Positions 2 to 25,007 of a stretch of DNA of 64,000 bases are shown piece by piece. The DNA lies in assembly GCA_027493445.1 (NCBI GenBank), contig JAOSKU010000001.1, forward strand, positions 2,996,822-3,060,821. The letters are read 5' to 3'. The notes beneath the pieces were generated by a model that made no database searches, was not told where the DNA came from, and saw only the letters and a list, made by a program, of their open reading frames with translations. This DNA is from Thermoleophilia bacterium. Its GTDB lineage: Bacteria > Actinomycetota > Thermoleophilia > RBG-16-64-13. A program made the position numbers and the translations under genes. Each line of letters starts with the position of its first letter. Position 1 is the first letter of the stretch.

Positions 2-478
2 GTGATCGCCGTGGGCCGCAACGACCTGAAGCTCGAGACCGCCGGCCGGCTGGGCGCCGGCGCCCTGGTCGATTTGCGGGAACCGGGCGACGCTCTGGAG
101 CGCATCCTGGAGTTGACCGATGAGGGCCGGGGAGTCGACGTGGCCATCGAAGCCGTCGGTCGGCCCGAGGTGTGGGATTTCGCCGTGAGCATGGTGCGCC
201 GGGGCGGGGTGGTCAACTTCTTTGGGGGCTGCGAGGAGGGTAGCGTCGCGTGCGTGGATACCTACCGGCTCCACTACGAAGAGCTGCACCTGACGGCGGC
301 CTTCCATCACACCCCCCGGCATGTGCGTATGGCCATGGATGTGCTCGCCAATCGAGATTTCCCCGACGAGGCTCTGACCACCCACCGGTATACTCTCGAG
401 GAGCTGGTGACGCCGCTTCGTGTCATGAACAAGGAGCTCGCGGTCGAAGGCTTCATCAAGGCGGCGGTGACGCCGTAG
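2..478 (+). CDS. Zinc-type alcohol/threonine dehydrogenase family protein, C-terminal part (5' end outside window)
   Basis: This is the C-terminal ~158 residues of a medium-chain dehydrogenase; the catalytic N-terminal domain lies off the left edge. Visible are the end of the Rossmann fold with GVDVAIEAVGRPE and the RRGGVVNFFGG strand-turn, followed by the typical C-terminal helix and strand ending in EGFIKAAVTP. Family members oxidise alcohols, threonine or polyols with NAD(P)+. The substrate cannot be told from this fragment. It ends in TAG about 75 bases before selA and points the same way. The N-terminal zinc ligands cannot be checked. Confidence 0.8.
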   Translation: MIAVGRNDLKLETAGRLGAGALVDLREPGDALERILELTDEGRGVDVAIEAVGRPEVWDFAVSMVRRGGVVNFFGGCEEGSVACVDTYRLHYEELHLTAAFHHTPRHVRMAMDVLANRDFPDEALTTHRYTLEELVTPLRVMNKELAVEGFIKAAVTP

Positions 479-554
479 AAGGGGCCGGCGACGGAAGGTG
501 CGGCGGCGACGAGTTGGTCGCGTCCGGTTCCCATTCGAGATGCAGGAGGGCGCA

Positions 555-2000
<1,446 letters not shown>

Positions 2001-2107
2001 GGCTTTCCGGTGATGCCGCAGGGGCGAGCGGGTCTGCGCTTGAGGACCCATGTGGGTCGAGGCCGCGGGCCAGCCCTCGGGAGCACCCGACCGCGCTCGA
2101 TTCTGGA

Positions 2108-2506
2108 CTACCGGGCGTCCTCGCCGAGGACGCCGCGGGCCCATGCGACCACGGCTTCAGCTATGCCAACGGCGTGCTGGAACTCGATTTCTCCGACCGG
2201 TTCCAGTAGCCCGGGATACCGAGCGTCGAGGGCGAAGCCAGTCAGGACCGCACTGTCCTTCACTTCCGCAGGGATCTCCAACCCGGACTCCTCGAGAGCC
2301 TTTCCGAGTTCGTCGAGGTCGTGGGTTCGACGAAAGGGCACCGCACGTTGGCGACACACTGCTTTGAGCGCCTTCTCGGCGGCCTGCTGCGCTTGGAAGC
2401 CCATGTCCTCCCAAAACGCCTCCGCCGGCTTCGACTGTTTGGCTAGGGCCAGATTACTCTCCGCCCTCGCAAGCCAGTCGCGAGGACTGCCTGGTTCAGG
2501 CCGCAC
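2108..2506 (-). CDS. HEPN-domain toxin of an MNT/HEPN pair
   Basis: A 132-residue HEPN protein starting at GTG. It has the family core WEDMGFQAQQAAEKALKAV followed by RTHDLDEL, the Arg-His segment that forms the RNase or AMP-acceptor site in MNT-linked HEPN proteins. Its start overlaps the end of the upstream nucleotidyltransferase gene by 11 bases, the standard arrangement of these two-gene toxin-antitoxin systems. In characterised pairs the nucleotidyltransferase modifies and silences HEPN. The pair lies on the strand opposite selA and selB, between them. Family assignment is firm; activity is inferred. Confidence 0.85.
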   Translation of the reverse strand: MRPEPGSPRDWLARAESNLALAKQSKPAEAFWEDMGFQAQQAAEKALKAVCRQRAVPFRRTHDLDELGKALEESGLEIPAEVKDSAVLTGFALDARYPGLLEPVGEIEFQHAVGIAEAVVAWARGVLGEDAR

Positions 2507-3174: not shown

Positions 3175-5103
3175 ATGCCTGAGCGCGGGCTGACTCTGGG
3201 CACCGCCGGGCACATCGACCACGGTAAGACCACCCTGGTGCGGGCCCTCACCGGCAAGGACACCGACCGGTTGAAAGAGGAGAAGGAGCGGGGCATCTCC
3301 ATCGAGCTGGGCTACGCCGAGCTGGCGCTGCCCAGCGGCCGGCACCTGAGCGTGGTCGACGTACCGGGCCATGAGCGCTTCGTCAAGAACATGGTGGCCG
3401 GGGCCACGGGCATCGACATCTTCCTGCTGGTAGTGGCCGCCGACGACGGCGTCATGCCCCAGACCCGCGAGCACCTGCGCATCATCGAGCTGCTGGACAT
3501 CCCCCTGGGGGCAGTGGCCTTGACCAAGACCGACATGGTCGACGAGGAGATGGTGGAGCTGGCCGCGGCCGACGTGGAGGACTTCCTGGCTACCTCGCGC
3601 TATGCAGGCGCTCAGGTTGTGCCGGTGAGCGGGACCACAGGCGCCGGTCTGGACGAGCTGGAAAGAGTTCTGGACGGGCTCGCGGAGCGGGCCCCCCGGC
3701 GGGCGGCCTATCCGGCGACGCGAATGCCCATCGACCGGGTCTTCTCACTGAAAGGGATCGGGACGGTGGTCACCGGGACCCTGTGGTCCGGCGAGCTACG
3801 GCCCGAGGAAACGGTATCGATCCTTCCCCACACGAACTCCGAACGCCTGAACGAGGTGCGGGTGCGCAGCATCCAGGTGCACGACCACGCCGTGGAGGCG
3901 GCCGAGGAGGGGCAGCGGGTGGCCCTCAACCTGACCGGGGTTGACCGGCAGCAGCTGCAGCGGGGGCAGTGGGTGATCAAGGACCCGGTGCTGGAGCCCA
4001 CCTACCTGGCCGACGTCGCCCTGGTACTGCTCGACGACGCCCCTGAGCCCCTGACGCGGGTGTCGCGTGTGCGGGTGGACCACGGCACCCAGGAGGTGCT
4101 GGCCAAGGTGGTGCTGGCCGACCGGGAGGAGCTGCGGCCGGGCGAGTCCTGCTACGCCCAGATCCGCTTCGAGGACCGCGCTGTGGTGTATCCAGGGGAC
4201 CACTTCATCCTGCGCTCGCTCACTCCGGTGACGACCATCGGGGGCGGCCGGGTTTTCGATCCTCACCCGCACAAGCACGGCACCGACCCCAAGTGGCGTG
4301 AGCGCCTCAATGTGCTCGAGGAGGGGCCCGCTGACGCCATCGTGGCGCTTCTCCTGAAGGAAGCCTTCCCCGGGGGCGTGGCCCGCCGCCATCTGGACGC
4401 CAGCCCCTATCTCTGGCGCTTCGAGGCGCCTCCGGCGGTCAAGGCGGTGCTGGCCGACGGCCGGGCGCTGGAGGGAGGTCAGCAGCGGCTGTTCCACGGG
4501 CCGTCGCTGCTGGCGCTGGAGGAACGGGTGGTGGAAACGTTGCGAGTTCGGGCCGCGCTCGACGCGCTCGACCCCTACCTCTCGGTGGGAGAGCTGCGGC
4601 GGGAGGTCTCGGGAGGGAAGGAGTGGCCTGCCCTCGAGGCCGCCCTGGAGCGGTTGCAGGAAGCCGGCGACGTGGTGCGCACCGAGCATGGGCTGCGTTG
4701 GGGGCAGGCGGCCGGGGCGCTCGAAGGGCCCGATGCGGCGAATGCCGAGAAGCTGCTGGCCCACTACGAAGCGATCGGTCTGGAGGCGCCGGCGGTGGTC
4801 GTGGCCGGGAGCGCGGTCGGGCTGGCGGATCGGGACGCCCGGCGGCTGGTCCAGGCTCTGGAGCGCCAGGGGCGTATGACCAAGGTAGGCGAGGACCTCT
4901 ACTTCGCCAGCAGCACCCTCAGCGGCCTTATGGACACGATCGCCGCCGAGATGGAAGCCCGCGGCACCATCACCTTGGCCGAGGTGCGGGACCTCTTCGG
5001 CACCTCACGCCGCTACGCTCAGGCGCTGCTGGAGCACATGGACTCCGAGGGGCTCACCCTGCGGGTGGGCGACGCCCGGCGCCTGCGCAAACGGCGGCGG
5101 TAG
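3175..5103 (+). CDS. selB: Selenocysteine-specific elongation factor
   Basis: SelB delivers Sec-tRNA to UGA codons followed by a SECIS hairpin. The 642-residue protein has a full GTPase domain: P-loop [10 protein letters not shown], switch [25 protein letters not shown] and TKTD. EF-Tu-like domains II/III follow, then a long C-terminal array of winged helices (from about residue 380) that binds SECIS RNA. Its presence means UGA is decoded as Sec somewhere in this genome. ATG 3175 has GGAGG six bases upstream. Stop is TAG. Confidence 0.96.
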
Positions 5104-5837: not shown

Positions 5838-5875
5838 CTGTGGGCTCCGGGGCCGAACGGCCCCGGAGCCCACAG
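5838..5875 (-). terminator. Strong hairpin, likely terminator of the cytochrome operon
   Basis: A perfect 17-bp inverted repeat, CTGTGGGCTCCGGGGCC and its complement, surrounds a four-base loop (GAAC). It lies 45 bases past the cytochrome stop codon. On the minus strand it is followed by a short pyrimidine-rich stretch rather than a pure T-run. Confidence 0.7.
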
Positions 5876-5919: not shown

Positions 5920-7257
5920 TCAGAAGCCTATCGGCTCGTCCTTCAGGATGCCGCCGTTCGCCGCCTCCTCCTCGGCCAAATAAGGCGCCTGGATCCAGCC
6001 CTGGGCGTCGCCGACGGGGTCGGTGAGCCAGAACTTGGTGTAGTCGCCGCCGTGGCAGTTGGTGCAGGACGCGGTGATGGCGGTCGTACGCTGGATGGTG
6101 TGCGGGGTGGCGTGCTTCCACGTGGGACTGGCGGCCATGTCGGGGATGAGCCCGGCCACGGCGTTGGCTCCCGTGTAGGTGAACACGTCGCTGTCACCCG
6201 GCACGTGCCGCAGCACGGAGTACTTCTTGTGCTGGGTGTCGCCCTCGCCGGTCCACAAGGGGTTCAGGCCCGCTCGGAAGGTCATCAGGGCGTCGGGCGC
6301 CACCGTGGTGGGATCGGTGGCCGCCGCTTTGCGCGCGGCCAAGGTTGGATCGCCGCCGTTGATCTTGTAGAAGGCCAGACCGGTGCCGGTCACGTCGGTG
6401 TGACAGCTGAAGCAGTTCTTGTACGGCTGCGCATGGCAGACGTAGCAATCCATGGACTCTAGGTGATCCGACGTGTGCAGGCCCACCGCCGCAAAGGCGG
6501 ACGCATCGGCTTCGCCCGGACCGTGGCAGTCCTCGCAGCGCGGGGCGGTGGTCACCGCGTAGCGGTTGTCGTCGGTGGGCGCTCCCTCGCCGTGCATCTC
6601 CGCGGCGGGGTGACAGTTCATGCACTCCAGCCCGGCGGTCTTGTGCGCGTCGGCCTTTAGCGTGAAGTCCGTAGCTTTCCAGGGGCTGTCTGCGTCGTAG
6701 GCGGCCTTGTTCCGTTCGAGAAGGGCGCCGTTCTGCCCGTAGTACTCGTCCTTGACCCGCGAGCCATGACAGGCCGTGCAGTTGTTGTCCTGCGACGGGG
6801 TCTCCTGGAAGGCGTGGCCGGCCAGCAGGCCGCCTCCGGCCGTCTGGGGAACGCTCACGTGGCAGAAACCGCAGGCCGGTTCGCCTTCGGTGTTGGCCAC
6901 GTGGCATTTGGTGCACTGGGCATCGAAGCGCGCGCCGGCGGTGGCCGCGTCTACGGTGCCGAAACCGCGCTCGGCCAGATTAGCAGTGTAGCCGGCCAGG
7001 GTGGTGTGCAGGCTGTCACCGGCAGAGGCTACGGTGGCCGCGTGACAGGGGGTGCAGTCTCCGCTCCCGGGGACGGCTTCGAAGTCCCCGGCATGGGCCG
7101 TTTCGCGGGCGTTCGCTGTGTCGTCGCCACCGTGGCAGTCGGTGCAGGTCTTACCCATGTGCACGCTGCTGCCGGTGAGGACGCTGGGGTACTGCTCGAC
7201 GGATCCGTCGAAGATCCAGAACTTCTTCGGTGCCGGCACGGGCACCACAGATCCGCC
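5920..7257 (-). CDS. Decahaem c-type cytochrome; probably the C-terminal half of a Sec-containing fusion
   Basis: This frame carries ten CXXCH haem sites: CTDCH, CTPCH, CTKCH, CGFCH, CTACH, CMNCH, CEDCH, CYVCH, CFSCH and CTNCH. Multihaem c cytochromes are assembled outside the membrane and move electrons to or from extracellular acceptors. The first possible start (GTG 7248, VVPVPAPKKFW) has no signal peptide, which would prevent export and haem attachment. The frame is in phase with the upstream SLH-rhodanese frame and separated from it only by TGA 7258-7260. That frame supplies a signal peptide and an S-layer anchor. If independent, its GTG could be translated by coupling from GAGG overlapping the TGA. 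Ends in TGA. Confidence 0.9.
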   Translation of the reverse strand, partial: GGSVVPVPAPKKFWIFDGSVEQYPSVLTGSSVHMGKTCTDCHGGDDTANARETAHAGDFEAVPGSGDCTPCHAATVASAGDSLHTTLAGYTANLAERGFGTVDAATAGARFDAQCTKCHVANTEGEPACGFCHVSVPQTAGGGLLAGHAFQETPSQDNNCTACHGSRVKDEYYGQNGALLERNKAAYDADSPWKATDFTLKADAHKTAGLECMNCHPAAEMHGEGAPTDDNRYAVTTAPRCEDCHGPGEADASAFAAVGLHTSDHLESMDCYVCHAQPYKNCFSCHTDVTGTGLAFYKINGGDPTLAARKAAATDPTTVAPDALMTFRAGLNPLWTGEGDTQHKKYSVLRHVPGDSDVFTYTGANAVAGLIPDMAASPTWKHATPHTIQRTTAITASCTNCHGGDYTKFWLTDPVGDAQGWIQAPYLAEEEAANGGILKDEPIGF

Positions 7258-7260
7258 TCA
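7229..7260 (-). promoter_or_regulatory. Candidate selenocysteine TGA codon with SECIS-like hairpin
   Basis: The TGA (7260-7258) joins two in-phase frames. Eleven bases after it comes the stem GGTGCC / GGCACC (6 bp) with a six-base loop CGTGCC. The loop begins 17 bases past the TGA and has G in its second position. Bacterial SECIS elements are known to have an apical loop roughly 16-37 bases downstream with a G in the first two loop positions, and the E. coli fdhF hairpin also begins eleven bases after its UGA. selA, selB and tRNA-Sec flank this gene. The match is seen in sequence; decoding is inferred. Confidence 0.65.
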
Positions 7261-9075
7261 GCCTTCGCCTTCTGAGGGCGGTGCCTCCCCGGCCGCGACC
7301 GGATTGGCCACCTCGCGGTCATAGAAGATGCCGGTCAGGCTGGTGTGGCACGACTCACAGCCGCTGGGCGACTGGTAGTCGGCCAGGGAGTCCAGATCGT
7401 CGGCGCCGCCGTCGTTGACCGGGAAGTCCCAGGCTTTCATGAGGTCGAAGCTCTTGAGCTGCCCGGCGCCCGGAGCACCCCGGTTCCAGCCGTTCACGCC
7501 ATAGAGCAGGTTGCGCACGTCATAGCCCAGGATGCCCAGGGCCATGGTGGCGATACCACCGGTATGGCCTGTATAGCAGTAGGCGATGATCGGGTGCGAC
7601 GGGTCCACGAACTTGGTGAAGTTGGCCACGTCGGCCACCTTCTGGTAGGGGATGTTGATAGCTCCGGGGATGTGCCCGAGCGCGTAGTGGTTGGTCGCCC
7701 GTACGCTGACCAGCTGCGGGTCGTTGGCTGCGTTGCCGTCTTCGAGGTTCTGTGCCAGCGCGGACGGGTACACCTGGGTCTCGAATTGCGTGGTGAATCC
7801 GCCGAAGTAGTCCTTGGCCCGCAGCAGGGCCTTGGTCACAACGGCATCGGTCCCGAAGGCCGAGAAGGCAGGGTAGGCGCCCTGATCCACGCCGGCCACT
7901 GTTCCGGCTTCGAGCGGCTTCTGCACGATCACTCCGGCCGCGAGCGCGTCTTCGAAGCGGGTACCGGTCGGCACGAGATCGCGTTCGAACGACCAGGCGG
8001 TCATGCCCTGGAAGATCACCGTCGACTTCGGATAGGGGGTGGCCGTCTTGGCGTCGAGGGCGGCCTTCTGCGCCGCCGGGTCGGCGATGCGATAGAGGTT
8101 CACCAGCAGGTTGGCCATGTCGCCGTCGTCACCCCAGTAGGAGGCGATCACGATCTCCTGGTTCATGGGGATGCGGGGGTCGGCGGCTAGGAGGGCCTGC
8201 GGGACTTCCAGCAACGGGATATTCACCGCGCCCGGGATATGACCCTTGGCGAAATCGGCCGGTTCGCGCGTGTCGAGCACGAAGGGGTCGTTGGCCGCGT
8301 TGGCGTCGAAGAGGGCCTTCGCCACCACGTCCGGATTAGTGGTGTTGTAGCCCAGCGCCAGGACGGCGTTCAGGCGATCGGCGATCGCCTGAAAGTCGGC
8401 GGTCGGCTCGGCTGTCGTACCGATCACACGGCCCAGGGCCATCGTGTCGAGCAGCCGCGACACCATCTTGGCCACCTGGCCCCGGGTGGCGTTGGCGTAG
8501 GGGTCGAAGGTGGTGGCCGTCTTGCCGTCGAGGATGCCGTTGAACTTGGCCTTGGCCACCTCGGCTTGGGCGTAGTCGGGCACGTCGGTGAAGCCCGTCT
8601 GGTAGCCGGCGGGTGGATCAGCCAGGCCGCTCCCTCCGGCCCTAACGATGACCAGGGCCAGCTGCACCCGGGTGATGTTGTTGGCGGGGTTGAACTTGCC
8701 CTGGTCGCCCATGACGAAGCCGGCTTCGGCCGCTTCCTCGACGTAGTCGAAGGGATAGGGGACGCCCATGCCAGGCATGACGTCGGAGAACGTGGGGTTC
8801 TGCTCGTTATCGATCGCGTCCGTGTGGCGGTCGGTGGCGAGCACGATGATCTTGGCGAACTGCTGGCGGGTTACCGGGTCGTCGGGCTTGTAGGTGCCGT
8901 CGGGGAAGCCGCCCACGATCTCCAGGTCGGCCAGCCGAGTGATATCCGTGTAGAACGGATGGGTGCTCGGCACGTCGCTGAAGGCGGTGGCTCCCAGGGC
9001 GATTCCTACACCCAGGACCAACATCAGGGCCAGCACCACCAAGACCGAGAGGCTGAACATGTCACTTCGTCTCAA
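7258..9075 (-). CDS. Exported SLH-domain / tandem rhodanese protein with a C-terminal CXXCH; N-terminal half of candidate selenoprotein
   Basis: A 605-residue frame read up to the TGA. Residues 6-30 form a signal peptide. Three S-layer homology domains follow (about 31-85, 95-150, 158-212), which bind cell-wall polymer. There are two rhodanese domains: the first (about 250-370) lacks the catalytic cysteine (ASYWGDDGD), while the second (about 440-535) has Cys500 in CYTGHTGG. A single haem site CESCH is at 573-577, then a Gly/Glu/Pro-rich linker. The start is probably TTG 9075, with GAGGAG seven bases upstream; ATG 9060 is the alternative. The cell-surface location and the sulfur-transferase fold suggest sulfur, selenium or metal redox chemistry coupled to the following haems. 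Confidence 0.88.
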   Translation of the reverse strand: MRRSDMFSLSVLVVLALMLVLGVGIALGATAFSDVPSTHPFYTDITRLADLEIVGGFPDGTYKPDDPVTRQQFAKIIVLATDRHTDAIDNEQNPTFSDVMPGMGVPYPFDYVEEAAEAGFVMGDQGKFNPANNITRVQLALVIVRAGGSGLADPPAGYQTGFTDVPDYAQAEVAKAKFNGILDGKTATTFDPYANATRGQVAKMVSRLLDTMALGRVIGTTAEPTADFQAIADRLNAVLALGYNTTNPDVVAKALFDANAANDPFVLDTREPADFAKGHIPGAVNIPLLEVPQALLAADPRIPMNQEIVIASYWGDDGDMANLLVNLYRIADPAAQKAALDAKTATPYPKSTVIFQGMTAWSFERDLVPTGTRFEDALAAGVIVQKPLEAGTVAGVDQGAYPAFSAFGTDAVVTKALLRAKDYFGGFTTQFETQVYPSALAQNLEDGNAANDPQLVSVRATNHYALGHIPGAINIPYQKVADVANFTKFVDPSHPIIAYCYTGHTGGIATMALGILGYDVRNLLYGVNGWNRGAPGAGQLKSFDLMKAWDFPVNDGGADDLDSLADYQSPSGCESCHTSLTGIFYDREVANPVAAGEAPPSEGEG

Positions 9076-9311: not shown

Positions 9312-9408
9312 GGAGTGGCATCCGGTCTGGTGGCCGGCCCGGTCTTCAAAACCGCTGTTGGGCGGTGGTCCCGTCCAGGGTGGGTTCGATTCCCACGCCG
9401 CTCCGCCA
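9312..9408 (+). tRNA. selC: tRNA-Sec (anticodon UCA)
   Basis: A 97-base tRNA including encoded GCCA. The 8-bp acceptor stem pairs GGAGTGGC with GCCGCTCC. The 6-bp D stem CCGGTC/GGCCGG has a four-base loop. The anticodon loop CTTCAAA carries TCA at 9346-9348. A long variable arm follows, then the T arm GTGGG-TTCGATT-CCCAC. The 8-bp acceptor stem, long D stem and UCA anticodon are diagnostic of bacterial tRNA-Sec. One mismatch at the base of the anticodon stem was noted. Confidence 0.95.
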
Positions 9409-9891
9409 TTTGATTTGCAGGGGCTATTCGTGATTGGGAGCCCGGTCCTGGTGGCCGGGCTTTGGTGTTCGTGGGGGCGGTTGCTCTGCGATCGGCGACC
9501 AGAGCCTGGCCCACCTGTACGTGCTCGGATGAGAGTCGAAAGACCGCCCGGACGACCGACTCGAGAGCTCGCTCGCGACAGGTAAGACCGTTCAGTTGGC
9601 CCGGTTGGGCGCTCAGATGGTTGCCCTCGCCGGGCCCGTTACCCTCGGCGTGCAGCGAACGTCGAGAGTTGGCGTCGCCGGCTGCGATTGGCGCCTTCGA
9701 GTCACCGTGTGGACCGCCCGTCCATGATCTTCACCCTACGGTCTTGGCACGTGCGCACAGTTTTCCTCGCCGACACGCGGCGCACTGTTGGTGGGACGGT
9801 CCATACAAACGCGCCTTTCTGCCCGGTAGTCTCATGGGGATTCGCGGGGCGGCTCAGGCCGTGCGCGCCTATTCGGGCAAAAGGGGGGATC
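9409..9891. other. Intergenic region after tRNA-Sec, before the transporter operon
   Basis: No gene is supported. It contains the terminator-like hairpin at 9439-9461. AAGGGGGG just before ATG 9892 is the ribosome-binding site of the binding-protein gene, whose promoter must lie in this stretch. No riboswitch was recognised. Confidence 0.45.
9439..9465 (+). terminator. Hairpin downstream of tRNA-Sec
   Basis: Seven-bp stem AGCCCGG/CCGGGCT around a nine-base loop, followed by TTGGTGTT. It lies about 30 bases past the tRNA 3' end and is a plausible intrinsic terminator with a weak T-run. Confidence 0.5.
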
Positions 9892-11229
9892 ATGGAAGAT
9901 CGGGCGGCGAAGCAACCTTCTAGTGTTTCGAGGCGACAGTTCGTGACAGGCATGGGCGCGGCTGTGGTCGGGGGTCTGGTAGTCGGCGGGGGCGCCGGTT
10001 TTGGAGCTGGCTGGGCGGCGAGCGGCCCGGATTCTGGCGGCTCGGGTGGAGAGGGGACCGCGGGTGGCACTCTCAAGATCGGTTCCAGCCTTCCCCTCAC
10101 CGGGTTTGCGGCTGCGGACGGCCTCGAACAGAAGCAGGCGGTAACCCTCGCAATCGAGGAATGGAATGCTCGCGGAGGAGTTCTCGGCCGCCAGATCGAG
10201 TATGTAGTCGAGGACGTGGCCGACATGGCTCCCGAGACGATGCTGTCAAACTTCCGCTCCCTCACTACAAAAAGCAATGTTGACGCCATCATAAACGGCT
10301 ATCTCTTGTTCAGCGGGCCGGAGTACGATGTGGTTGCCGAGTCGGGCACTCCATACATACATGTGAACACGCTAGAATCGAACCCTGAGACATACAAGTC
10401 GAATCCAGACAAATACTGGATGACGTTCATGGCAGATCCGTCGCAGAAGTGGTACGGACTTGGTTTTCCAGCGTTCATCCAAGCGATAGAAGCTGAGGGC
10501 AAATGGAAGCCGGCCAAGAAGGAAATCGCCATCATCACCGCTTCCGATCCCTATGCGACAGGCATTGCCGATAACCTTCAGGCAAGCATGCAGAAGGTCG
10601 GGTGGACGGTCTCGCTCTTCGAGAAGATCGTAGCCCCCCTTAATGAGTGGGGACCTATTCTCCAGAAGATCAGAAGTAACTCGCCGGATGTAATCTTTGT
10701 TTCTGACCTCACTCTCGGCGATATCGCCTCGTTCACCAAGCAGTTCAGCGAGAACCCCACGCCGTCGCTCTTGTACGGTCAGTACGTGCCCTCGCTCAAG
10801 GAATACATCGACCTTGCTGGGGCCGCTTCGAACGGTGTGGTTTGGTCGACCGTGCTCGGAATTGTCCCGGGAAAGCAGGCCGATGAGTATCGAGCGGCCT
10901 ACGAAAAGCGGTGGGGCGTAAAGCCTGGCGGCAGCATTGGTGGAATCTTGTATGACGAGACCAATCTGTATCTGACAGCGGTCGCTATGGCTGGAGGGCC
11001 CGAAGACCGCAAGAAGGTATGCGACATCGTGAATCGCAATTGGTATCGGGGTCTCTGTGGCGTGTATCACTTCACCGACGAGCGAACCGTCGCCCCATAT
11101 CCTGACGACACGCCTGACCCCGCCACGGGTGTATCCCACTTGTATGTGCAAATCCAAAACGGTGAGCAGAAGATCATCTACCCGAAACCCTACACGGAGT
11201 CGACATTCGAGCTTCCCGCTTGGTTCTAG
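9892..11229 (+). CDS. Tat-exported substrate-binding protein of a branched-chain/amide-type ABC transporter
   Basis: A 445-residue periplasmic-type binding protein (LivJ/UrtA/AmiC fold). ATG 9892 is preceded by AAGGGGGG. A twin-arginine signal, SRRQFVTGMGAAVVGG, spans about residues 13-45, so it is exported folded. The mature domain starts at about residue 60 with LKIGSSLPLTGFAAADGLEQ, the class's ligand-binding entry. It heads the transporter genes livG/F/H/M. A closely similar domain is fused to the regulator at 21934, so both probably bind the same ligand. The ligand is unknown; neighbours suggest an amide, ureide or hydantoin-like compound. Confidence 0.9.
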   Translation: MEDRAAKQPSSVSRRQFVTGMGAAVVGGLVVGGGAGFGAGWAASGPDSGGSGGEGTAGGTLKIGSSLPLTGFAAADGLEQKQAVTLAIEEWNARGGVLGRQIEYVVEDVADMAPETMLSNFRSLTTKSNVDAIINGYLLFSGPEYDVVAESGTPYIHVNTLESNPETYKSNPDKYWMTFMADPSQKWYGLGFPAFIQAIEAEGKWKPAKKEIAIITASDPYATGIADNLQASMQKVGWTVSLFEKIVAPLNEWGPILQKIRSNSPDVIFVSDLTLGDIASFTKQFSENPTPSLLYGQYVPSLKEYIDLAGAASNGVVWSTVLGIVPGKQADEYRAAYEKRWGVKPGGSIGGILYDETNLYLTAVAMAGGPEDRKKVCDIVNRNWYRGLCGVYHFTDERTVAPYPDDTPDPATGVSHLYVQIQNGEQKIIYPKPYTESTFELPAWF

Positions 11230-11262
11230 CTCTGTTCTGTCAACTCGACTCTACGGGGGATC

Positions 11263-12036
11263 TTGGTGCAACCGGGTACGGATCGCGTTCTTCTCGATTG
11301 CCGGGGCGTGCATAAGGACTATGGAGGTGTGCGGGCTCTCGATGGTGTGCACTTCTCGGTATCCCGCGACGAGATCGTCGGTCTCGCTGGGGCCAACGGT
11401 GCCGGCAAGAGCACGCTACTGAACGCCATTGGCGGACAGATCCGCGTCGACGGCGGGAGCATTTCCCTCTCCGGCACTCCGATCGAACGGGTCGGAGCGC
11501 ACAAGGTGTGCCATCTGGGCGTGGCGCGGACCTTCCAAGATACCCGGGTGTACCCATCTGCAACTGTGCTGGAGAACGTCGCTCTGGCTGTTGCGTACGC
11601 GGAGGGTAGCCGGGCGGGCCGGTGGCTGTTCGGATCGCGGCGATTGACGACGGCTATGCAACAGCTGCGTCGCCTCGCCCTGGATGGCCGGGCGCAGCAG
11701 CTCGCCGGCCGACTCTCCGTGTATGAGAAGAAGCGGCTCATGCTGGCCTGTGCGCTGGCCACACGGCCTCGGCTCCTCCTGCTCGACGAGCCGGCCGGCG
11801 GCCTCTCGCCGGAGGAAGTGCTCGAGACCGTAGAGGTGTGCCGGTCTGTCAGGCGGGAGGGCACGGCAATCGTGGTCGTCGAGCACATCATGAGCTTCCT
11901 CAGCGCTCTGGCCGACAGGGTGGTCATCTTGCATGAGGGCAAGACCCTGTTCGAGGGGTCACCCGCACAAGTCTCGCATGAGCCACGAGTGCGGGCGGCC
12001 TGGTTGGGCGAAAGAGTAGGGAGCGGCCGGCGATGA
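11263..12036 (+). CDS. ABC transporter ATP-binding protein, LivG type
   Basis: About 257 residues. Walker A is GANGAGKST and Walker B is RLLLLDEPAGGLSPEE, with the LivG-type insert around GVARTFQDTRVYPSATVLENV. The ABC signature is degenerate: LSVYEKKRLMLA instead of the usual LSGGQ/LSYGQQ pattern. TTG 11263 or GTG 11266 can start it behind GGGGGA. Its stop overlaps the next gene (ATGA). It energises uptake together with the LivF-like partner. Confidence 0.9.
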   Translation: MVQPGTDRVLLDCRGVHKDYGGVRALDGVHFSVSRDEIVGLAGANGAGKSTLLNAIGGQIRVDGGSISLSGTPIERVGAHKVCHLGVARTFQDTRVYPSATVLENVALAVAYAEGSRAGRWLFGSRRLTTAMQQLRRLALDGRAQQLAGRLSVYEKKRLMLACALATRPRLLLLDEPAGGLSPEEVLETVEVCRSVRREGTAIVVVEHIMSFLSALADRVVILHEGKTLFEGSPAQVSHEPRVRAAWLGERVGSGRR

Positions 12037-12770
12037 ATGTGCTGGAAGTGTCCGACCTTAGCTGCGGCTATGGGGCTACCGAAGTGGTGTCCGGAGTCAG
12101 TTTCTCCGTTGGTGCGGGCGAATGCCTGGGGGTCATTGGGCCGAACGGCCACGGCAAGACGACCATCCTGCGGGCCATCTCCGGCTTGGTTCCTCCTTGG
12201 GGCGGCTCTATCCGGCTTCAAGGCAGGGAATTGCGCAAGTGCTCGCCGCACAGCATAGCTCGCTTCGGCCTGGCGCATGTCCCTCAGGGGGACATGATCT
12301 TCCCTGACTTGTCGGTTGAAGACAATCTCAATGCCGCCCTCTATGGTGCGGGGAAATGGAGGGACCGCCGGCGCGTCATCGATGAGGTCTGCGGTGTGTT
12401 TCCACGTCTGAAGGAGCGTCGCGGGCAGCTCTCCATGACGCTCAGCGGCGGGGAGAAGCGCATGCTGGCTCTGGGGCGAGGCCTCGTGCTCGATGCCCAG
12501 CTGCTCATGATCGACGAGCCGTCCCTGGGGCTGGCGCCGCGGGTGATCGCGGAAGTCTATGAGCGCATTTGTCACATGCGGGAGCGGGGCCTGTCGATGA
12601 TCATCGTGGACGAGAGTCCGGCGCGCCTGGAAGGCGTAGCCGACCGCCTTTGCCTTATCGACGCGGGGCGGGTGATCGAGGTCGGACCCACCGCGGACAT
12701 GCTGGAGCACGAGAAGGTACTGGAGACCTACTTGGGCTTCTCGGTCGACGAAGAGGGGACTAGCCCATGA
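12033..12770 (+). CDS. ABC transporter ATP-binding protein, LivF type
   Basis: A 245-residue ATPase with Walker A GPNGHGKTT, intact signature LSGGEKRMLALGR and Walker B LLMIDEPSLGLAP, plus the LivF-type VPQGDMIFPDLSVEDN. It overlaps the LivG-like gene by four bases at the start and the permease gene by four at the end, so it is translationally coupled. It pairs with the LivG-like subunit, whose signature is degenerate. Confidence 0.92.
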   Translation: MNVLEVSDLSCGYGATEVVSGVSFSVGAGECLGVIGPNGHGKTTILRAISGLVPPWGGSIRLQGRELRKCSPHSIARFGLAHVPQGDMIFPDLSVEDNLNAALYGAGKWRDRRRVIDEVCGVFPRLKERRGQLSMTLSGGEKRMLALGRGLVLDAQLLMIDEPSLGLAPRVIAEVYERICHMRERGLSMIIVDESPARLEGVADRLCLIDAGRVIEVGPTADMLEHEKVLETYLGFSVDEEGTSP

Positions 12771-13651
12771 GAAGCGACATGGTGCAAGTGCTGTACACGG
12801 CGGTCGTGTTGGGGTCGACCTACGCGCTGATGGCGTCCGGTTTGACGTTGATATGGGGAGGACTGCGGTTTCTCAATCTCGCGTACGGCGCGGTCTTCTC
12901 GGTGGGAGCGTTCGCCGCCTACTGGGCTGTGTCGACTTGGGGACTGCCCGCAGTCGCTGCTCTTCCCGTGGGGTTCGCCACCTCGGCCGTTCTCGGTGCC
13001 ATCGTCCATGTTGGCGTTTTCCGGCCACTGCTCAAGAGACCTGACGGACAGACGTCTACTTTGGTGGCGGGTTTGGGAGTGGCCCTCTTCTTGCAGGCGG
13101 CTCTCGTTATCCAGTTCTCACCCCGAGACCGCTCACTACCGGCTTTGGTGGAGGGCAGCGTCCATTTGCCCGGGGGAGTCGTTGCGAGTGCGTCGGCCGC
13201 CCTCGTTGTTGGGGCCGCCGTGATCACCCTGACCATCTTGGGCACGTTCTTGACTCGCTCCCGGTACGGAGTCGGGATTCGCGCCCTGGCCAATCATAGG
13301 GATGGCGCCGAACTCCTCGGTATCAACACTGGGCGACTCGTCCTCCTGGTCATGGTCCTCGGCAGTGGTCTCGCGGGGTTGGCGGGAGTTCTCCTCAGCT
13401 CGTTCTACTTCGTTTCCATCGGGGCCGGCTTCACTGCGCTTGTGAAAGGTCTGATCGTCACGATAACGGGTGGCCTCGGCAATCTTCGGGGCACGTTGAT
13501 TGCCGCCTATCTGGTCGGCTTGGTCGAATCGAGCGTGTCTCTGTGGCTCGGAGCGCGCTGGTCGTTGCCATTGCTTTTCGCCGCCGTGTTGATCCTGCTC
13601 GTCGCCCGTCCTCAGGGCATCGCAGGCCGTATCTCCTTCGAGGGGCGGTAG
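12767..13651 (+). CDS. ABC transporter permease, LivH type
   Basis: A 294-residue inner-membrane permease with about eight hydrophobic helices. It starts within the ATGA overlap. The opening YTAVVLGSTYALMASGLTLIWGGLRFLNLAYG is the LivH family signature region, and GLIVTITGGLGNLRGTLIAA is the conserved late loop. It forms the translocation path with the LivM-like subunit that starts two bases later. Confidence 0.92.
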   Translation: MRSDMVQVLYTAVVLGSTYALMASGLTLIWGGLRFLNLAYGAVFSVGAFAAYWAVSTWGLPAVAALPVGFATSAVLGAIVHVGVFRPLLKRPDGQTSTLVAGLGVALFLQAALVIQFSPRDRSLPALVEGSVHLPGGVVASASAALVVGAAVITLTILGTFLTRSRYGVGIRALANHRDGAELLGINTGRLVLLVMVLGSGLAGLAGVLLSSFYFVSIGAGFTALVKGLIVTITGGLGNLRGTLIAAYLVGLVESSVSLWLGARWSLPLLFAAVLILLVARPQGIAGRISFEGR

Positions 13652-13652
13652 C

Positions 13653-14954
13653 ATGGAGCATCGACAGCCGCACGTCGCCGAGACCGGAGACCTTGGGCCG
13701 ACCAGCGAGGGGCACATCGCACCCGCCAGGAGCGATCTCCCTCTCGATCGGCCCGCACCGATTCGTCTACGGCCTCGCCCCTACTTCAGTACAGCCGTGC
13801 TTGCGGTCGCGACGGTGCTCATGCTCCTCCTTCCCTATGTCTCCGGACCCTATCTCGTGGGCTTGGTGACCTTGGTGCTCGTGTTCTCCATCGTGAACAT
13901 CGCCTGGAATCTGCTCTTGGGCTATGGAGGAGTCTTCTCCTTTGGGCAGCTCGGCTTTTTCGCCGTGGGTGGGTACACGGCGGCCAACCTCGACCTGCAC
14001 ACGGCTCTGCCTTTGTGGGTTTCCATTCCCGCCGCGGCCGCCGTCGGCGGGTTGGTCGGGTTGGCCATCGGGATACCTTCACTACGGCTGTACGGCCCCT
14101 ACATGGTGCTCTTCACGCTTGCCTTTCAGCTCAGTCTCTCCGCTTTGGTCACTACAGACTCGAGCCGGTTGACGGGCGGGGCCGGCGGCCTTGGTAGCCT
14201 CCAATCGATCGAGTTCTGGGGTCTCGACCGGCAGCAGGCCACCCTCTACGTGGGGGTCCTGCTCTTTCTGCTCACATACGGTGGGGTCGCGTTCTTGCTG
14301 CGCTCGCCACTGGGACTAGCCTTGCAGGCCGTGCGCGACAGCCGGGAGGCCGCCGAGGCTCGCGGAGTCAACCTGTTCCGGCACCGGGTTGCGCTGTTCA
14401 CGATCTCCGCTTTCCTCACGGCTCTTTCCGGAGCTTTCTACGCACACTATGTGGGGGTGATCGTTCCCACCGTACTAGGACTCGGTCTGCTCCTCAGTCT
14501 GCTGGCCATGCTCGTGCTCGGAGGTATCGGCACACAGGCCGGCCCGGTCGTGGGCACGTTGGTTCTGGTCTATCTCAACGACCGACTCTCTTCGACAGAG
14601 GAGTATCGCCAGGCGATCTGGGGTGCACTCATCGTTGTTGTCGCGCTGCTGCTCCCCGGCGGGTTAGTGGGCACAGCCAGCGGACTGTTCGGCCGGGCGC
14701 GCTCCTTCGTCGAGGAGTGGATGCAGGAAGGCTCTCCGCCAACAGGTGCCGGGGCGGGGGATGCGGAGAAGGAAACGAGTGCTGAAGGTCTGCCACCCGA
14801 ATCCGCGGCTGTCGACCTGGCGAGCGCGGACAGCTCGCAAGAAGGGGCGCAGAGAGATGCGCGAGCCGATTGCGCGGGAATGGGTGGGCCAACTGGCGAT
14901 CAGGGCGGAGGGTCCGGCCGAGGAATTCTCGACTCGAGTATGTCAAACCACTAA
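13653..14954 (+). CDS. ABC transporter permease, LivM type, with long C-terminal tail
   Basis: A 433-residue permease. The membrane core is LivM-like: NIAWNLLLGYGGVFSFGQ near residue 80, the AVRDSREAAEARGVN loop and the GGIGTQAGPVVG loop. N-terminal (about 45 residues) and C-terminal (about 75 residues after RARSFVEEW) extensions are hydrophilic and low in complexity, and unusual for LivM. The ORF runs almost to the start of the hyuA-like gene (18 bases apart). The tail could be cytoplasmic or partly spurious, but no alternative stop is present. Confidence 0.9.
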   Translation: MEHRQPHVAETGDLGPTSEGHIAPARSDLPLDRPAPIRLRPRPYFSTAVLAVATVLMLLLPYVSGPYLVGLVTLVLVFSIVNIAWNLLLGYGGVFSFGQLGFFAVGGYTAANLDLHTALPLWVSIPAAAAVGGLVGLAIGIPSLRLYGPYMVLFTLAFQLSLSALVTTDSSRLTGGAGGLGSLQSIEFWGLDRQQATLYVGVLLFLLTYGGVAFLLRSPLGLALQAVRDSREAAEARGVNLFRHRVALFTISAFLTALSGAFYAHYVGVIVPTVLGLGLLLSLLAMLVLGGIGTQAGPVVGTLVLVYLNDRLSSTEEYRQAIWGALIVVVALLLPGGLVGTASGLFGRARSFVEEWMQEGSPPTGAGAGDAEKETSAEGLPPESAAVDLASADSSQEGAQRDARADCAGMGGPTGDQGGGSGRGILDSSMSNH

Positions 14955-14971
14955 CGATGGAGGGAAGAGCA

Positions 14972-17020
14972 ATGCTTCGTGTTGGAATCGACGTTGGCGG
15001 GACGTTCACAGATCTATTCGCCTGGGATCCAGGTGCCAAGACAGGTCGTACCGCAAAGGTGCTCACCACTAGGCAGAACCTCGCGGAAGGCGTGTTGAAC
15101 GCCCTGGTTCAGGCCGAGATCGACCCCGCCGATATCGGCGTCTTCGTGCATGGAAGCACGACTGCGACCAATGCACTGATCGAGCGCAGCTACCCGGAAC
15201 CGGCGCTCATAACGACAGAGGGCTTTCGGGACACGATCGAGATAGGGAGACAGCGCAGAGCGCACCTCTATGACCCGTACCAGCATAAGCCCGCGCCATT
15301 GATCCGTCGTCGTAACCGTTACACGGTGGCCGAGCGCATTCGAGCAGATGGTTCGGTCCGGATCGAGCTCGATGAGGGCCGCGTCCGAGAGATCGCTGCC
15401 CGTATCCGCGACAAAGGCAACCGAAGCGTGGCCGTGGCCTTCATAAACAGCTACGCGAATCCGCTGCACGAGCAACGCGTCCGGGACATTCTGCAACACG
15501 AGACCCCGGGCGTGAAAGTCGCCTTGTCGTCCGATGTCTCGAAGTTCCGAGAGCTGGGGCGCTTCGTCACTGCCGCCGTGCGGGCAGCTCTCCTGCCCGT
15601 GATGGGGGACTATCTCGAGCAGCTGGAGGGAGACCTCGAAACGCGAGGTTTTCGGGGCGTGTTCTACGTCATCAAGTCGAACGGTGGCGTCATGAGAGCC
15701 GCTGCCGCGAAAGAGCGACCAGAGGAGTTGATCGAATCGGGGCCTGCGGGAGGAGTGGCTGCGGCGCAGCACGTCGCCGATCAGATTCGTGAGCCAGAGC
15801 TCGTTTCCACCGACATGGGGGGCACGAGCTTTGATGTGTGTCTCATCGAGGGTGGCAGGGGGCTGGTGAGCGACAGCTACCAGCTCGAGTGGGACATGCC
15901 CATAATCGTCCCGATGCTGGACATTCGCAGCATTGGGTCAGGCGGGGGCAGTATTGCGTGGATCGATGAGGGAGGTTCCCTTCGCGTGGGGCCCCGAAGC
16001 GCCGGCTCGTCGCCCGGTCCAGCCTGCTATGGACGTGGCGGCACCGAGGCGACGATCACAGACGCGAATCTCCTGCTCGGACGTCTGGACCCGACGCTTG
16101 GCGGCAAGTTCCAGCTTGACCGGGAGGCCGCGGAGCGGGCGGTAGGAGTCTTGGCAGACCGTCTCGGTATGGATCTGCTGCGGTGCGCAGAAGGCATCGT
16201 GGAGATCTGTGCGGAGAACATGGCGTCGGCCATCAAGATGGTCTCCATCGACCGTGGACGGGATCCCCGCGACTTCTCCATGGTGAGCTTCGGGGGCGCC
16301 GGCGCCATGCACGCATGGGCCATCGCCCCGTCGGTGGGCATCGACAAGGTCATCGTGCCCCCGTTCGCGGGGGTGGCATCGGCCTTCGGGGCCACCGTCA
16401 TGGACGTGCGGCACGACATCGAAGCTACGTACTACATGGCGTGCGACACGGCTGACTTGGCCGAGCTCAACGCAAAGTACAAGGAACTTGAGGATTCCAG
16501 CCTAGCCCTGCTCGAGGGCGAAGGCTTCAGTCGCGATCAAGTAGGGATCATCCGGACTGCGGGCATGAGATATGTGGGTCAGTCGTACGAAGTGGACACT
16601 CCCATCCCACTTGGGACGATAGGCCAGGACGCCCTACGCGATATCGTCGCCAACTTCCACGTGGTCCACCGCCAGGAGCACGGGGTGGCCTCCGACATCT
16701 TCGGCGTGGCCTTCGTGAACCTACGCGTGACTGCGGTAGGCAAGGTGGAAAAGCCAGGCTTCGAGACTCTCAAGCTGTCCAGTGGTGTCGGGGGGACGGA
16801 CGGGGGCTCGGCGGGCAAAGGCAACCGGGACGTCTACTTCGATGGTCGGTTCGTGTCCGCGTCGATCCTCCGAGGGGACAGACTGGAGCCCGGGTACGTG
16901 GTCAAAGGTCCGAGCATCATAGAGTATGCCGACGCGGAGATCGTCGTGCCGCCTCTTATGACCGCTGAGACCGATGACTACGGAAACGTCGTGATCACTG
17001 GCAACCACAGCCGCAGCTAA
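14972..17020 (+). CDS. Hydantoinase/oxoprolinase family protein, A subunit
   Basis: A 682-residue ATP-dependent HyuA-type subunit. ATG 14972 lies eight bases after GGAGG. The N-terminal phosphate-binding motif is VGIDVGGTFTDLFAWDPGA. Further family motifs are STTATNALIER, ESGPAGGVAAAQ, STDMGGTSFDV and the glycine-rich GSGGGSIAWIDEGG. The family, acting with a B subunit, opens cyclic amides (N-methylhydantoin, oxoproline) using ATP; related acetone carboxylases add a third subunit, which is absent here. It follows the uptake genes directly. The exact substrate is unknown. Confidence 0.9.
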   Translation: MLRVGIDVGGTFTDLFAWDPGAKTGRTAKVLTTRQNLAEGVLNALVQAEIDPADIGVFVHGSTTATNALIERSYPEPALITTEGFRDTIEIGRQRRAHLYDPYQHKPAPLIRRRNRYTVAERIRADGSVRIELDEGRVREIAARIRDKGNRSVAVAFINSYANPLHEQRVRDILQHETPGVKVALSSDVSKFRELGRFVTAAVRAALLPVMGDYLEQLEGDLETRGFRGVFYVIKSNGGVMRAAAAKERPEELIESGPAGGVAAAQHVADQIREPELVSTDMGGTSFDVCLIEGGRGLVSDSYQLEWDMPIIVPMLDIRSIGSGGGSIAWIDEGGSLRVGPRSAGSSPGPACYGRGGTEATITDANLLLGRLDPTLGGKFQLDREAAERAVGVLADRLGMDLLRCAEGIVEICAENMASAIKMVSIDRGRDPRDFSMVSFGGAGAMHAWAIAPSVGIDKVIVPPFAGVASAFGATVMDVRHDIEATYYMACDTADLAELNAKYKELEDSSLALLEGEGFSRDQVGIIRTAGMRYVGQSYEVDTPIPLGTIGQDALRDIVANFHVVHRQEHGVASDIFGVAFVNLRVTAVGKVEKPGFETLKLSSGVGGTDGGSAGKGNRDVYFDGRFVSASILRGDRLEPGYVVKGPSIIEYADAEIVVPPLMTAETDDYGNVVITGNHSRS

Positions 17021-17085
17021 CGATGTAGGCATCGCTCATAACAGCTCGCGCACCCCGCTAGCCACTCGAACACCGGAGGTCGAAG

Positions 17086-18861
17086 ATGTCAGTCGAAACA
17101 ACGAAACTTGATCCCATAACCTTTGAGGTTATGCGAAGCTCCTTTGAATACACCTGCGAGAGGATGAGTAACGTTCTCCAGCGGGCATCATTCTCTCCGA
17201 TCATATATGACATGGTTGACTATTCGAATGGCATATTCGATTCCAATATTCAACTCTTGGGTCAGACCGCGAATTGCCCTGTCCACCTTGCCGCTATGCA
17301 TTTCAGCGCACAAGCCTGTGTTGCGAAGTATGGGGTTCTTGCGCCCGGTGATGTGGTGGTTCTCAATGATCCCTACCAGGGAGGAACTCATACTCCCGAC
17401 GTCACGATGACTTCTCCTATCTACTTCGGCGATGAGCTGCTCGGCTATGGCGTGAGTCGCGCTCACTGGACCGACGTAGGCGGTGGCGGCGCGGGCGGGC
17501 AGGCGTTTGGGACGCATATTGCCGCCGAGGGCCTTCGCCTTCCGCCGGTGAAGCTTGCCGAAGGAGGGAAGCTGAACGACGATCTTGTCGCCATCATCAG
17601 GAATGCCACGCGCGTGCCCCAGTACGTGGACGGAGACATCCAGGCGCAGCTCGGGGCGTTGCGAGCGGCCGAGATGGAGCTCACGCGACTGGCCAAGAAG
17701 TATGGTGTTCACGCGCTTCGCGAGGGAATGCGTGAGGTGATCGACTACACGGAACGCATGACCCGAGCAGCTATTGAACGCATCCCCGATGGGACGTACG
17801 AAGCCGACGACTACGCCGATACGGACGGGTTCCAACCAGACCCCATACGCCTGCACGTGAAGCTCACTGTGAAGGGCGACGAGCTCAACGTCGATTTTGA
17901 AGGCACGGACCCAGCCTCTCTCGGCTCGATCAACTCACCCATGGCCAACACGGTGTCTGCCGTCTACTACTCGCTGAAGTTCTTCCTCAATCCAGATGCC
18001 CCGGCCAACGCGGGTTTGTATCGGCCGATCACTATCGACATCCCCGAGAAGACCTGGCTCAATCCCGTGTGGCCTTCACCCACCATCGGTTGCACGACGT
18101 TGGCCTCGTCCAAGATCTGTGCGGCCATCTGGCAGGCTTTGGCCAAGGCGATTCCCGAACGGATAGTCGCTCCGACGTTCAGCGAATGCAACTGGTTTGT
18201 CGCCTCGGTGGCGGATTCGACGGGGGACCTGTATGTGTTCTCGGACCTCCCGGCCGGCGGTTGGGGTGGCACTCCTTACGGTGACGGCATGAATGTGACC
18301 ATGGACCCCCTCGGCAATTGCATGAATCTGCCTGCGGAAAACGCTGAGATGCTCTTCCCCGTGGAATACGACTCCGTCGAGATGCGGACGGACTCGGGAG
18401 GACCAGGCAAGTACCGCGGCGGCGTCGGCATGGAGTTCCAGGTCCGATTCGGTGGTCGCGGAGAGCTCAACATGGAATGCTCTCGCACTCGGGCAGGATC
18501 GCCTGGGGTGAACGGCGGGCATGCCAGCCCGCCTCAGCGGCAGTCCCGAATCGCATTGGACGGCAGCCGGCACACCATTGGGGGCCTCACGCCCGAGGGC
18601 GAGTTCCTCAGCTGCCTGCTTGCCGGCAGCCCTTTCACCGCCGGGGAGGCGTTCCTATTCGAGAGCACTGGCGGCGGTGGTTGGGGCGATCCCTTGGAGC
18701 GTGATCCAGCTGCGGTCTTGGATGACGTGCTGGACGAATACGTCTCACCTGAAGCCGCCCATGACGTCTACGGGGTCGTTCTGGATCTCGGGGCCGAGAG
18801 TGTGAATGAAGAGGCCACGCGTTCTCGGCGGGAAGAGATCCGGGCGTCGCGGACCTCGTAG
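17086..18861 (+). CDS. Hydantoinase/oxoprolinase family protein, B subunit
   Basis: A 591-residue HyuB-type subunit. It begins KLDPITFEVMRSSFEYTCERM and carries the family blocks VVLNDPYQGGTHTPD, DLPAGGWGGTPYGDG, DSGGPGKYRGGVGM and STGGGGWGDPLERDP. HyuB forms the partner of HyuA (65 bases upstream); both are needed for ATP-dependent ring opening. Together with the transporter, this points to catabolism of a cyclic amide or ureide. Confidence 0.9.
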   Translation: MSVETTKLDPITFEVMRSSFEYTCERMSNVLQRASFSPIIYDMVDYSNGIFDSNIQLLGQTANCPVHLAAMHFSAQACVAKYGVLAPGDVVVLNDPYQGGTHTPDVTMTSPIYFGDELLGYGVSRAHWTDVGGGGAGGQAFGTHIAAEGLRLPPVKLAEGGKLNDDLVAIIRNATRVPQYVDGDIQAQLGALRAAEMELTRLAKKYGVHALREGMREVIDYTERMTRAAIERIPDGTYEADDYADTDGFQPDPIRLHVKLTVKGDELNVDFEGTDPASLGSINSPMANTVSAVYYSLKFFLNPDAPANAGLYRPITIDIPEKTWLNPVWPSPTIGCTTLASSKICAAIWQALAKAIPERIVAPTFSECNWFVASVADSTGDLYVFSDLPAGGWGGTPYGDGMNVTMDPLGNCMNLPAENAEMLFPVEYDSVEMRTDSGGPGKYRGGVGMEFQVRFGGRGELNMECSRTRAGSPGVNGGHASPPQRQSRIALDGSRHTIGGLTPEGEFLSCLLAGSPFTAGEAFLFESTGGGGWGDPLERDPAAVLDDVLDEYVSPEAAHDVYGVVLDLGAESVNEEATRSRREEIRASRTS

Positions 18862-24498: not shown

Positions 24499-25007
24499 GG
24501 AGAAGACCGCGGGGCTTGTCTGCCATTGGGAGCAAGCCGCGCCGGGGCAGCGCGGTCGTATCCCCGGAGCACGGGTGGGGGATCGGCCAAAGACCTATCT
24601 CCGTAGAGTCCCGTAGTGGACGTCGAATACTCTGACCGTCCGGTCATCTGACCCCCGCTTCGGAGGAGGAACCAAGGGACTCTTCGATCGCGACGACGGC
24701 TGAGACAAGTTGCGCGTCCCGGCATGGCGGGCCCACCGGTGGGTGGTGGAAGCCTGCCATTCCTGGCTCAACCGCAACCGCGGCCTGCTCATCCGCGCGT
24801 CGCGTCCCTCAGAGAGCAGGCCTGGCAACGGCCCAACTGGTGCCGAAAGCTGACGAGGGTTGGCTGCCGAGCACAAGCCGCAGATAGCACTTGCGTCGGA
24901 GTTCTGTGACGGACGTCCATGGTGAACCGTCTGGGCCACTGTTAGTGTTCAAGTGGGTCAGGCTGGACGCTTCCGATGGGTTTCACCACGAGAAGGAGGC
25001 TGCGGGG
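24499..25007. other. Intergenic region with transposase remnant
   Basis: 509 bases between the regulator and mtbB. Apart from the IS5-type remnant at 24704-24856, nothing is recognised. AAGGAGG at 24993-24999 is the mtbB ribosome-binding site. Confidence 0.4.
24704..24856 (+). pseudogene. IS5-family transposase C-terminal remnant
   Basis: One frame reads KLRVPAWRAHRWVVEACHSWLNRNRGLLIRASRPSES before drifting to a stop. RWVVE-x3-SWLNR-x3-LLIR is the conserved C-terminal segment of IS5-type DDE transposases, including the catalytic glutamate. An in-frame stop lies just upstream and no inverted repeats were found, so this is a decayed fragment. Confidence 0.6.

Follow-up and report, generated by a model that had tools for sequence, protein, structure and literature searches.

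A predicted selenocysteine-containing eleven-haem cytochrome fused to rhodanese domains in a Thermoleophilia genome and its putative rhodanese-paired family

Within the 64,000-nucleotide stretch of Thermoleophilia bacterium DNA analyzed here (assembly GCA_027493445.1, contig JAOSKU010000001.1, positions 2,996,822 to 3,060,821; hereafter the window), a single minus-strand frame at 9075-5920 is broken by one internal TGA codon (7260-7258). Based on the comparison of homologues, this codon is almost certainly decoded as selenocysteine (Sec). Taken as a whole, it is best explained as the gene for a single exported selenoprotein some 1,051 residues long, tethered by S-layer homology (SLH) domains and combining a tandem rhodanese with an 11-haem cytochrome, a reading for which a probability of roughly 0.75 is estimated. 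Within a broader family of Sec-decahaem cytochromes, the protein is predicted to represent a fused form anchored at the cell surface, and the same arrangement was found in more than 50 bacterial genomes.

The first-pass annotation of this DNA had described two same-phase minus-strand frames parted by exactly one TGA, the first encoding a signal peptide, three SLH domains, two rhodanese domains and one CXXCH motif, the second ten CXXCH motifs without a signal peptide. Coordinates and open reading frames (ORFs; 9075-7258 and from there down to 5920) were reproduced, and the domain content was recovered by Pfam and motif counting. The 605 codons ahead of the TGA and the 445 codons behind it, which start with VVPVPAPKKFW, add up to a read-through product of 1,051 residues with 11 CXXCH motifs, at which haem attachment is predicted. 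The parts of the gene are as follows:

8989-9075, minus strand: TTG start and signal peptide (residues 1-29, MRRSDMFSLSVLVVLALMLVLGVGIALGA), found by inspection, with AGGAG about 7 nt 5' of the start
8446-8988, minus strand: three SLH domains (residues ~30-210; PF00395, 95.3 bits)
7981-8292, minus strand: rhodanese domain 1 (limits approximate; PF00581 and alignment A2), without the active-site Cys (ASYWGDDGD)
7483-7761, minus strand: rhodanese domain 2 (residues 439-531; PF00581 and loop scan), catalytic loop IIAYCYTGHTGG, Cys at ~500
7345-7359, minus strand: haem motif 1, CESCH (residues 573-577), ahead of the Sec site
7258-7260, minus strand: in-frame TGA, predicted Sec606 in the linker SEGEG-U-GGS (homologue comparison)
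7228-7247, minus strand: predicted bacterial selenocysteine insertion sequence (SECIS) hairpin, loop CGUGCC (covariation and model constraints)
5923-7257, minus strand: decahaem c-type cytochrome part with ten CXXCH motifs (PF14522 and PF14537)
5838-5875, minus strand: terminator-like perfect 17-bp hairpin 3' of the final TGA (5922-5920), recognized from the sequence

PF00581 matched the window protein in two stretches with 90.1 bits (gathering score 22.2), and the second half matched the cytochrome c7/c3 models PF14522 (43.6 bits against 24.8) and PF14537 (43.6 against 25). Rhodanese domain 2 retains the catalytic Cys in its loop YCYTGHTGG, whereas domain 1 does not. The terminator-like hairpin (5875-5838) follows the second TGA and not the first; the whole gene probably forms one transcription unit.

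Homologues were collected by a stop-independent protein search and then with profile A3 at a threshold of E 1e-30, which could leave out more divergent relatives lacking Sec; ExtM-like proteins fall just past it. In total, 62 distinct homologues with 29-82% identity were obtained from Actinomycetota and Desulfobacterota-type genomes. The closest (61-82% identical) originate from the same family of genomes as the window, and further relatives were found in an Actinomycetes metagenome-assembled genome (MAG; JAJZQZ010000004.1) and a Desulfuromonadales MAG (JAGXHI010000063.1). In all of these, TGA lies in the identical context SEGEG-U-GGSV; shorter relatives (at most 38% identity) in the class of the Desulfuromonadales MAG carry TGA at the same site. 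Profile A3 matched 48 of 395 genomes in the phylum of the latter MAG and 4 of 397 in the phylum of the window. Among viral contigs no related loci were observed, and plasmids yielded ordinary rhodanese matches only.

At the linker site, 61 of the 62 homologues have TGA and one (L068) has TAC, encoding Tyr; TAA, TAG or a Cys codon was found in none of the 62. In alignment A7, whose 58 rows are TGA-containing members, neither the Sec column nor the preceding Gly varies, and this Gly is present in 62/62. The family motif is G-U-(G/A)G, and Sec follows haem motif 1 at a constrained spacing of 22-32 residues. Hence the location of Sec in a Gly/Glu-rich linker, previously regarded as a puzzle, is a conserved property of the family. 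The first-pass annotation had predicted that homologues would show either TGA with a hairpin or an uninterrupted protein with Cys or Sec. Both outcomes occurred, since L068 is an uninterrupted open frame of 717 codons, but the residue in that frame is Tyr and the expected Cys form did not appear.

Regarding L068 itself (genome G913, 258-2387, minus strand), the protein carries a C-terminal double rhodanese, its genome retains SelB, and the ORF upstream resembles an outer-membrane porin. A decayed copy with a frameshift just after the Sec site (L071) was left out of the comparison; it is the second family copy in genome G899, has a one-base deletion just after the SECIS and is accompanied by an intact copy (L051) in the same genome.

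The reported stem-loop GGUGCC-CGUGCC-GGCACC, which begins 11 nt 3' of the TGA and has G as its second loop base, was likewise reproduced. According to the bacterial SECIS (bSECIS) model, loops of 3-9 nt, stems of 4-16 bp, a G in the first two loop positions and a spacing of 16-37 nt are allowed (PMC13188914). The window hairpin, with a 7-bp stem, the 6-nt loop CGUGCC, G at loop position 2 and a spacing of 17 nt, lies within these limits. Across the family the hairpin was aligned in two registers, a few divergent sequences that fit neither well being omitted from the second alignment. In the window register, with 32 sequences, pairing extends to 89.7% of cells, compared with a mean of 77% after shuffling, and 6 of 7 pairs are changed on both sides; in the other register (24 sequences), the values are 92.7% (81.8% shuffled) and 4 of 8 pairs. 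The covariation score was reached by 0/500 shuffles in either register; these shuffles ignore relatedness and hence do not provide probabilities, whereas a slide control that keeps relatedness, with the partner moved by 1-3 bases, reduced pairing to 29-53%. Moreover, a whole-stem swap from GCUCC-GUU-GGAGC to GAGCC-GUU-GGCUC alters the protein from V-A-P-L-E to V-E-P-L-A. Since such swaps alter the protein, the RNA structure appears to set the amino acids after the TGA.

That the TGA is instead a true stop between two separately made proteins, a recent nonsense mutation or a sequencing error is very improbable: a GTG start does lie 10 nt after the TGA in the window copy, and one stop dividing two ORFs is nothing exceptional in a window this GC-rich, but TGA is the only stop, in 61 homologues, with conserved protein on either side and a covarying hairpin, none of the members read has a signal peptide on its downstream half, from the TGA to the next haem motif 8 of 62 members have no ATG, GTG or TTG and therefore no usable start, and the sense-codon homologue is uninterrupted. 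Stop codon, mutation and sequencing error were accordingly rejected on the basis of the 61 homologues.

The genes for Sec synthesis and insertion that had been placed on both sides of the cytochrome gene were found at the following positions:

498-1997, plus strand: selA (TIGR00474, 563 bits, cut-off 268)
3175-5100, plus strand: selB (TIGR00475, 345.6 bits, cut-off 242)
9312-9408, plus strand, divergent from the cytochrome gene: tRNA-Sec gene (ARAGORN; Rfam RF01852, 74 bits)

Together with selD, located elsewhere in the genome (L112, G000:C1:1135976-1136899), the set comprising selA, selB, selD and tRNA-Sec is present. The selD gene has the canonical in-frame TGA (LSHGSG-U-ACKIG) and is itself a predicted selenoprotein gene, so that the genome would rely on Sec decoding elsewhere too.

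Several observations weigh against the interpretation as a single redox-active selenoprotein or call for caution. The frame geometry is weak when taken alone, as another same-frame pair (at least 400 codons each) lies one stop apart at 31152 in the GC-rich window. Likewise, the hairpin of the window sequence alone is not significant (z -1.56, 15/200 shuffles as good). Of 60 family-positive genomes 56 encode SelB, yet 17 of 20 control genomes do as well; SelB is not discriminating, and its co-occurrence is only consistent with Sec decoding and no evidence in itself. Most of the genomes seem to be unfinished multi-contig assemblies. A redox-active Sec would usually have Cys homologues, of which none was found, and L068 lacks Sec altogether. 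Furthermore, an AlphaFold model of residues 225-1051 from an 11-row alignment was useless (pLDDT 39). The 482-residue Sec-decahaem part modeled from 58 rows reached pLDDT 74 and pTM 0.78; confidence was low to medium for the Sec segment, and large parts of the surrounding linker fell below pLDDT 50. A Foldseek search of this model against the PDB returned no relative (E above 1). Sec is predicted to sit on a hinge, flexible and rich in glycine, that separates haem 1 from haems 2-11. Frame geometry and the single hairpin are both weak on their own; it is the homologues that decide in favor of Sec.

The association with rhodanese extends across the family. At 60 distinct loci, an N-terminal rhodanese fusion was observed in 6 (the window, L018, L019, L020, L024, L069), a C-terminal fusion in 3 (L029, L068, L070) and a same-strand downstream rhodanese within 3 kb in 48, mostly within 0.5 kb. 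Of the remaining three loci, two end at a contig edge, and in the third (G974) the contig continues upstream of the gene for just 192 bp. Coupling to a predicted exported rhodanese, encoded as next gene or fused at either end, thus holds for all members in which it can be assessed. Pfam confirmed rhodanese domains in ten of ten proteins checked, most partner rhodaneses start with a signal peptide, and many carry a YCxxG-type active-site loop. As a background at the ORF level, 422 other ORFs from these stretches were considered, and 7 of them have rhodanese as next gene. The corresponding family score of 23/30 is an undercount, as ORF calling splits the genes at the TGA, and the domain-level count was used instead. 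Apart from rhodanese, no conserved neighbours of the family gene were found.

In the tree, the N-terminal fusions group on one branch (100/100) with members from Actinomycetota as well as Desulfuromonadia; a separate branch holds two of the C-terminal fusions. Fusion therefore occurred at least twice, in opposite orders, and such independent fusions are strong evidence that cytochrome and rhodanese function together. A 13-haem cytochrome and a small membrane protein, possibly cytochrome b (L081, L082), adjoin the Sec-cytochrome/rhodanese pair; they may represent its electron donor.

The SLH surface anchor is, as judged from sequence comparison, a peculiarity of the window lineage; homologue L019, for example, has a lipoprotein signal where the window protein has its SLH part. 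About 50 SLH matches were counted in the window genome, several of which (L002-L009) are 52-82% identical to the SLH part of the window protein and have other C-terminal parts, which suggests domain shuffling. Another SLH protein, L010, with a TGA inside its match, was rejected as a chance read-through beyond the normal C-terminus. The near-universal rhodanese pairing, the missing Cys form and the lineage-specific SLH part are features that go beyond what the first-pass annotation had described.

In order to evaluate the novelty of the family, NCBIfam, Pfam, open-access papers and a 2026 inventory of 119 prokaryotic selenoprotein families (PMC13188914) were consulted. A decahaem or rhodanese-cytochrome family is absent from that inventory, a full-text search of open-access papers retrieved no such family, and no match to a named NCBIfam selenoprotein model reached its cut-off. 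Very probably, these proteins constitute an undescribed selenoprotein family paired with rhodanese. The nearest described Sec cytochrome is ExtKL of Geobacter ('cyt_C_like_Sec', NF040886, GSU2937+GSU2936; Fujita et al. 2007, PMC1914089; PMC5877670), which is also a Desulfuromonadia multihaem c-type cytochrome with one in-frame TGA and whose cluster includes the rhodanese ExtH. In ExtKL, however, five haems all precede Sec, which lies in IPDG-U-PTPN within a haem-free C-terminal region, whereas in the window protein Sec stands between haem 1 and ten further haems. NF040886 (cut-off 250 bits) matched neither the window protein nor anything in its whole genome. The multihaem cytochromes ExtM and ExtN (NF040943, NF040967) are distant homologues of the decahaem part, scoring 41.3 and 47.6 bits, below the cut-offs of 800 and 200, and those ExtM-like proteins adjoining ExtKL that were read have neither the Gly-U-Gly linker nor an in-frame TGA within the haem region.

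Rhodanese-type selenoproteins, forms 1-5 including TsoB (PMC13188914, Table 1), share a rhodanese domain and Sec in one protein. Their Sec occupies the short motifs UxxS, UxxG, CxU or UxxxxU, and no multihaem partner is listed, whereas the window rhodanese retains Cys and Sec lies in the cytochrome linker. Based on model cut-offs and on the position and motif of Sec, membership in ExtKL, ExtM/ExtN or the listed rhodanese selenoproteins was rejected. Haem-motif selenoproteins already listed include the GSU2204-family CXXCH selenoprotein (NF041027) and a tetrathionate-reductase-family octahaem protein with Sec (TIGR04315); neither model matched any family member scanned. A further parallel is the secreted rhodanese encoded beside polysulfide reductase in sulfur disproportionators, which is thought to pass sulfur to an extracytoplasmic reductase (PMC12142623); the partner there is the Psr polysulfide reductase and not a Sec cytochrome.

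For the window protein, a transfer mechanism for sulfur or selenium is tentatively proposed. The product would be exported and tethered to the surface by its SLH domains. Rhodanese domain 2 would bind sulfane sulfur (or selenium) as a Cys-persulfide, drawing it from a donor such as thiosulfate or polysulfide, and the Sec selenolate would then accept it as a selenenyl-sulfide. Electrons from the haem chain could cleave this bond and release HS- or HSe-; alternatively, the cycle might run in reverse and feed electrons outward. Binding of an oxyanion by conserved Arg and Glu residues is also conceivable.

An unlikely alternative is that the gene encodes a reductase module for selenite/tellurite (or Se0) akin to the Geobacter ext system, in which rhodanese would handle selenium and not sulfur. 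The ext cluster indeed unites the rhodanese ExtH, the Sec cytochrome ExtKL and the multihaem ExtM/ExtN, an extI mutant is defective in selenite/tellurite reduction (PMC5877670), and the decahaem part shows the distant relationship to ExtM/ExtN mentioned above. Against this stand the scores far under the curated ExtM/ExtN cut-offs and the location of the ExtKL Sec in a different domain; moreover, no porin or Rieske/cytochrome b partner was recognized beside the window gene.

Even less probable is a role of Sec as axial ligand or active-site partner of one haem, with rhodanese merely supplying or removing sulfur. Haems ligated by Cys or Cys-persulfide in SoxAX and TsdA offer a comparison for such a ligand. 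Over the 62 sequences, 9 distal His residues are conserved for 11 haems, leaving two haems without a conserved His ligand, and the constrained distance between haem motif 1 and Sec would fit this role. The absent ligands could, however, be non-conserved or open sites, and the Sec segment is a low-confidence linker in an AlphaFold model that contains no haems.

In a more far-reaching reading, these proteins would be an undescribed, widespread family of exported Sec-dependent 11-haem cytochromes with an obligate, dedicated rhodanese, acting as a persulfide/selenide redox device in which a Sec hinge links sulfur transfer to a haem wire and which has no Cys counterpart; the odds of this wider picture are put at slightly below even. 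The lack of a Cys counterpart, if true, would explain why discovery through Cys/Sec pairs has overlooked the family, and exposes a blind spot of that approach. One large phylum carries the family in about 12% of its sampled genomes, so that many 'two genes' or 'truncated cytochromes' annotated there are probably single selenoproteins. To the known selenoproteins the family would add a multihaem cytochrome with Sec between haems, outside known motifs and nearly always tied to a sulfur-transfer enzyme. Furthermore, one polypeptide makes it possible to test directly whether rhodanese chemistry, selenium and extracellular electron transfer are linked, as has been suspected.

Further recoding signals and genes were noted in the window. 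The dimethylamine methyltransferase gene mtbB (24891-26411, plus strand) contains an in-frame TAG (26067-26069); with this codon read as pyrrolysine, the product matches PF09505 over positions 4-462 of 463 with 682 bits. PylS was detected above its cut-off in the window genome, which probably decodes both Sec and pyrrolysine. In addition, a DEAD/helicase-C protein (29284-32832, minus strand) is divided in frame by a single TAG (31152-31150), which could reflect read-through, decay or an error, and is followed by a further ORF with an MrfA Zn-binding domain in a different frame. Finally, positions 9688-18861 (plus strand) harbor genes for a branched-chain amino-acid-type ABC transporter and then hydantoinase/oxoprolinase A and B genes.

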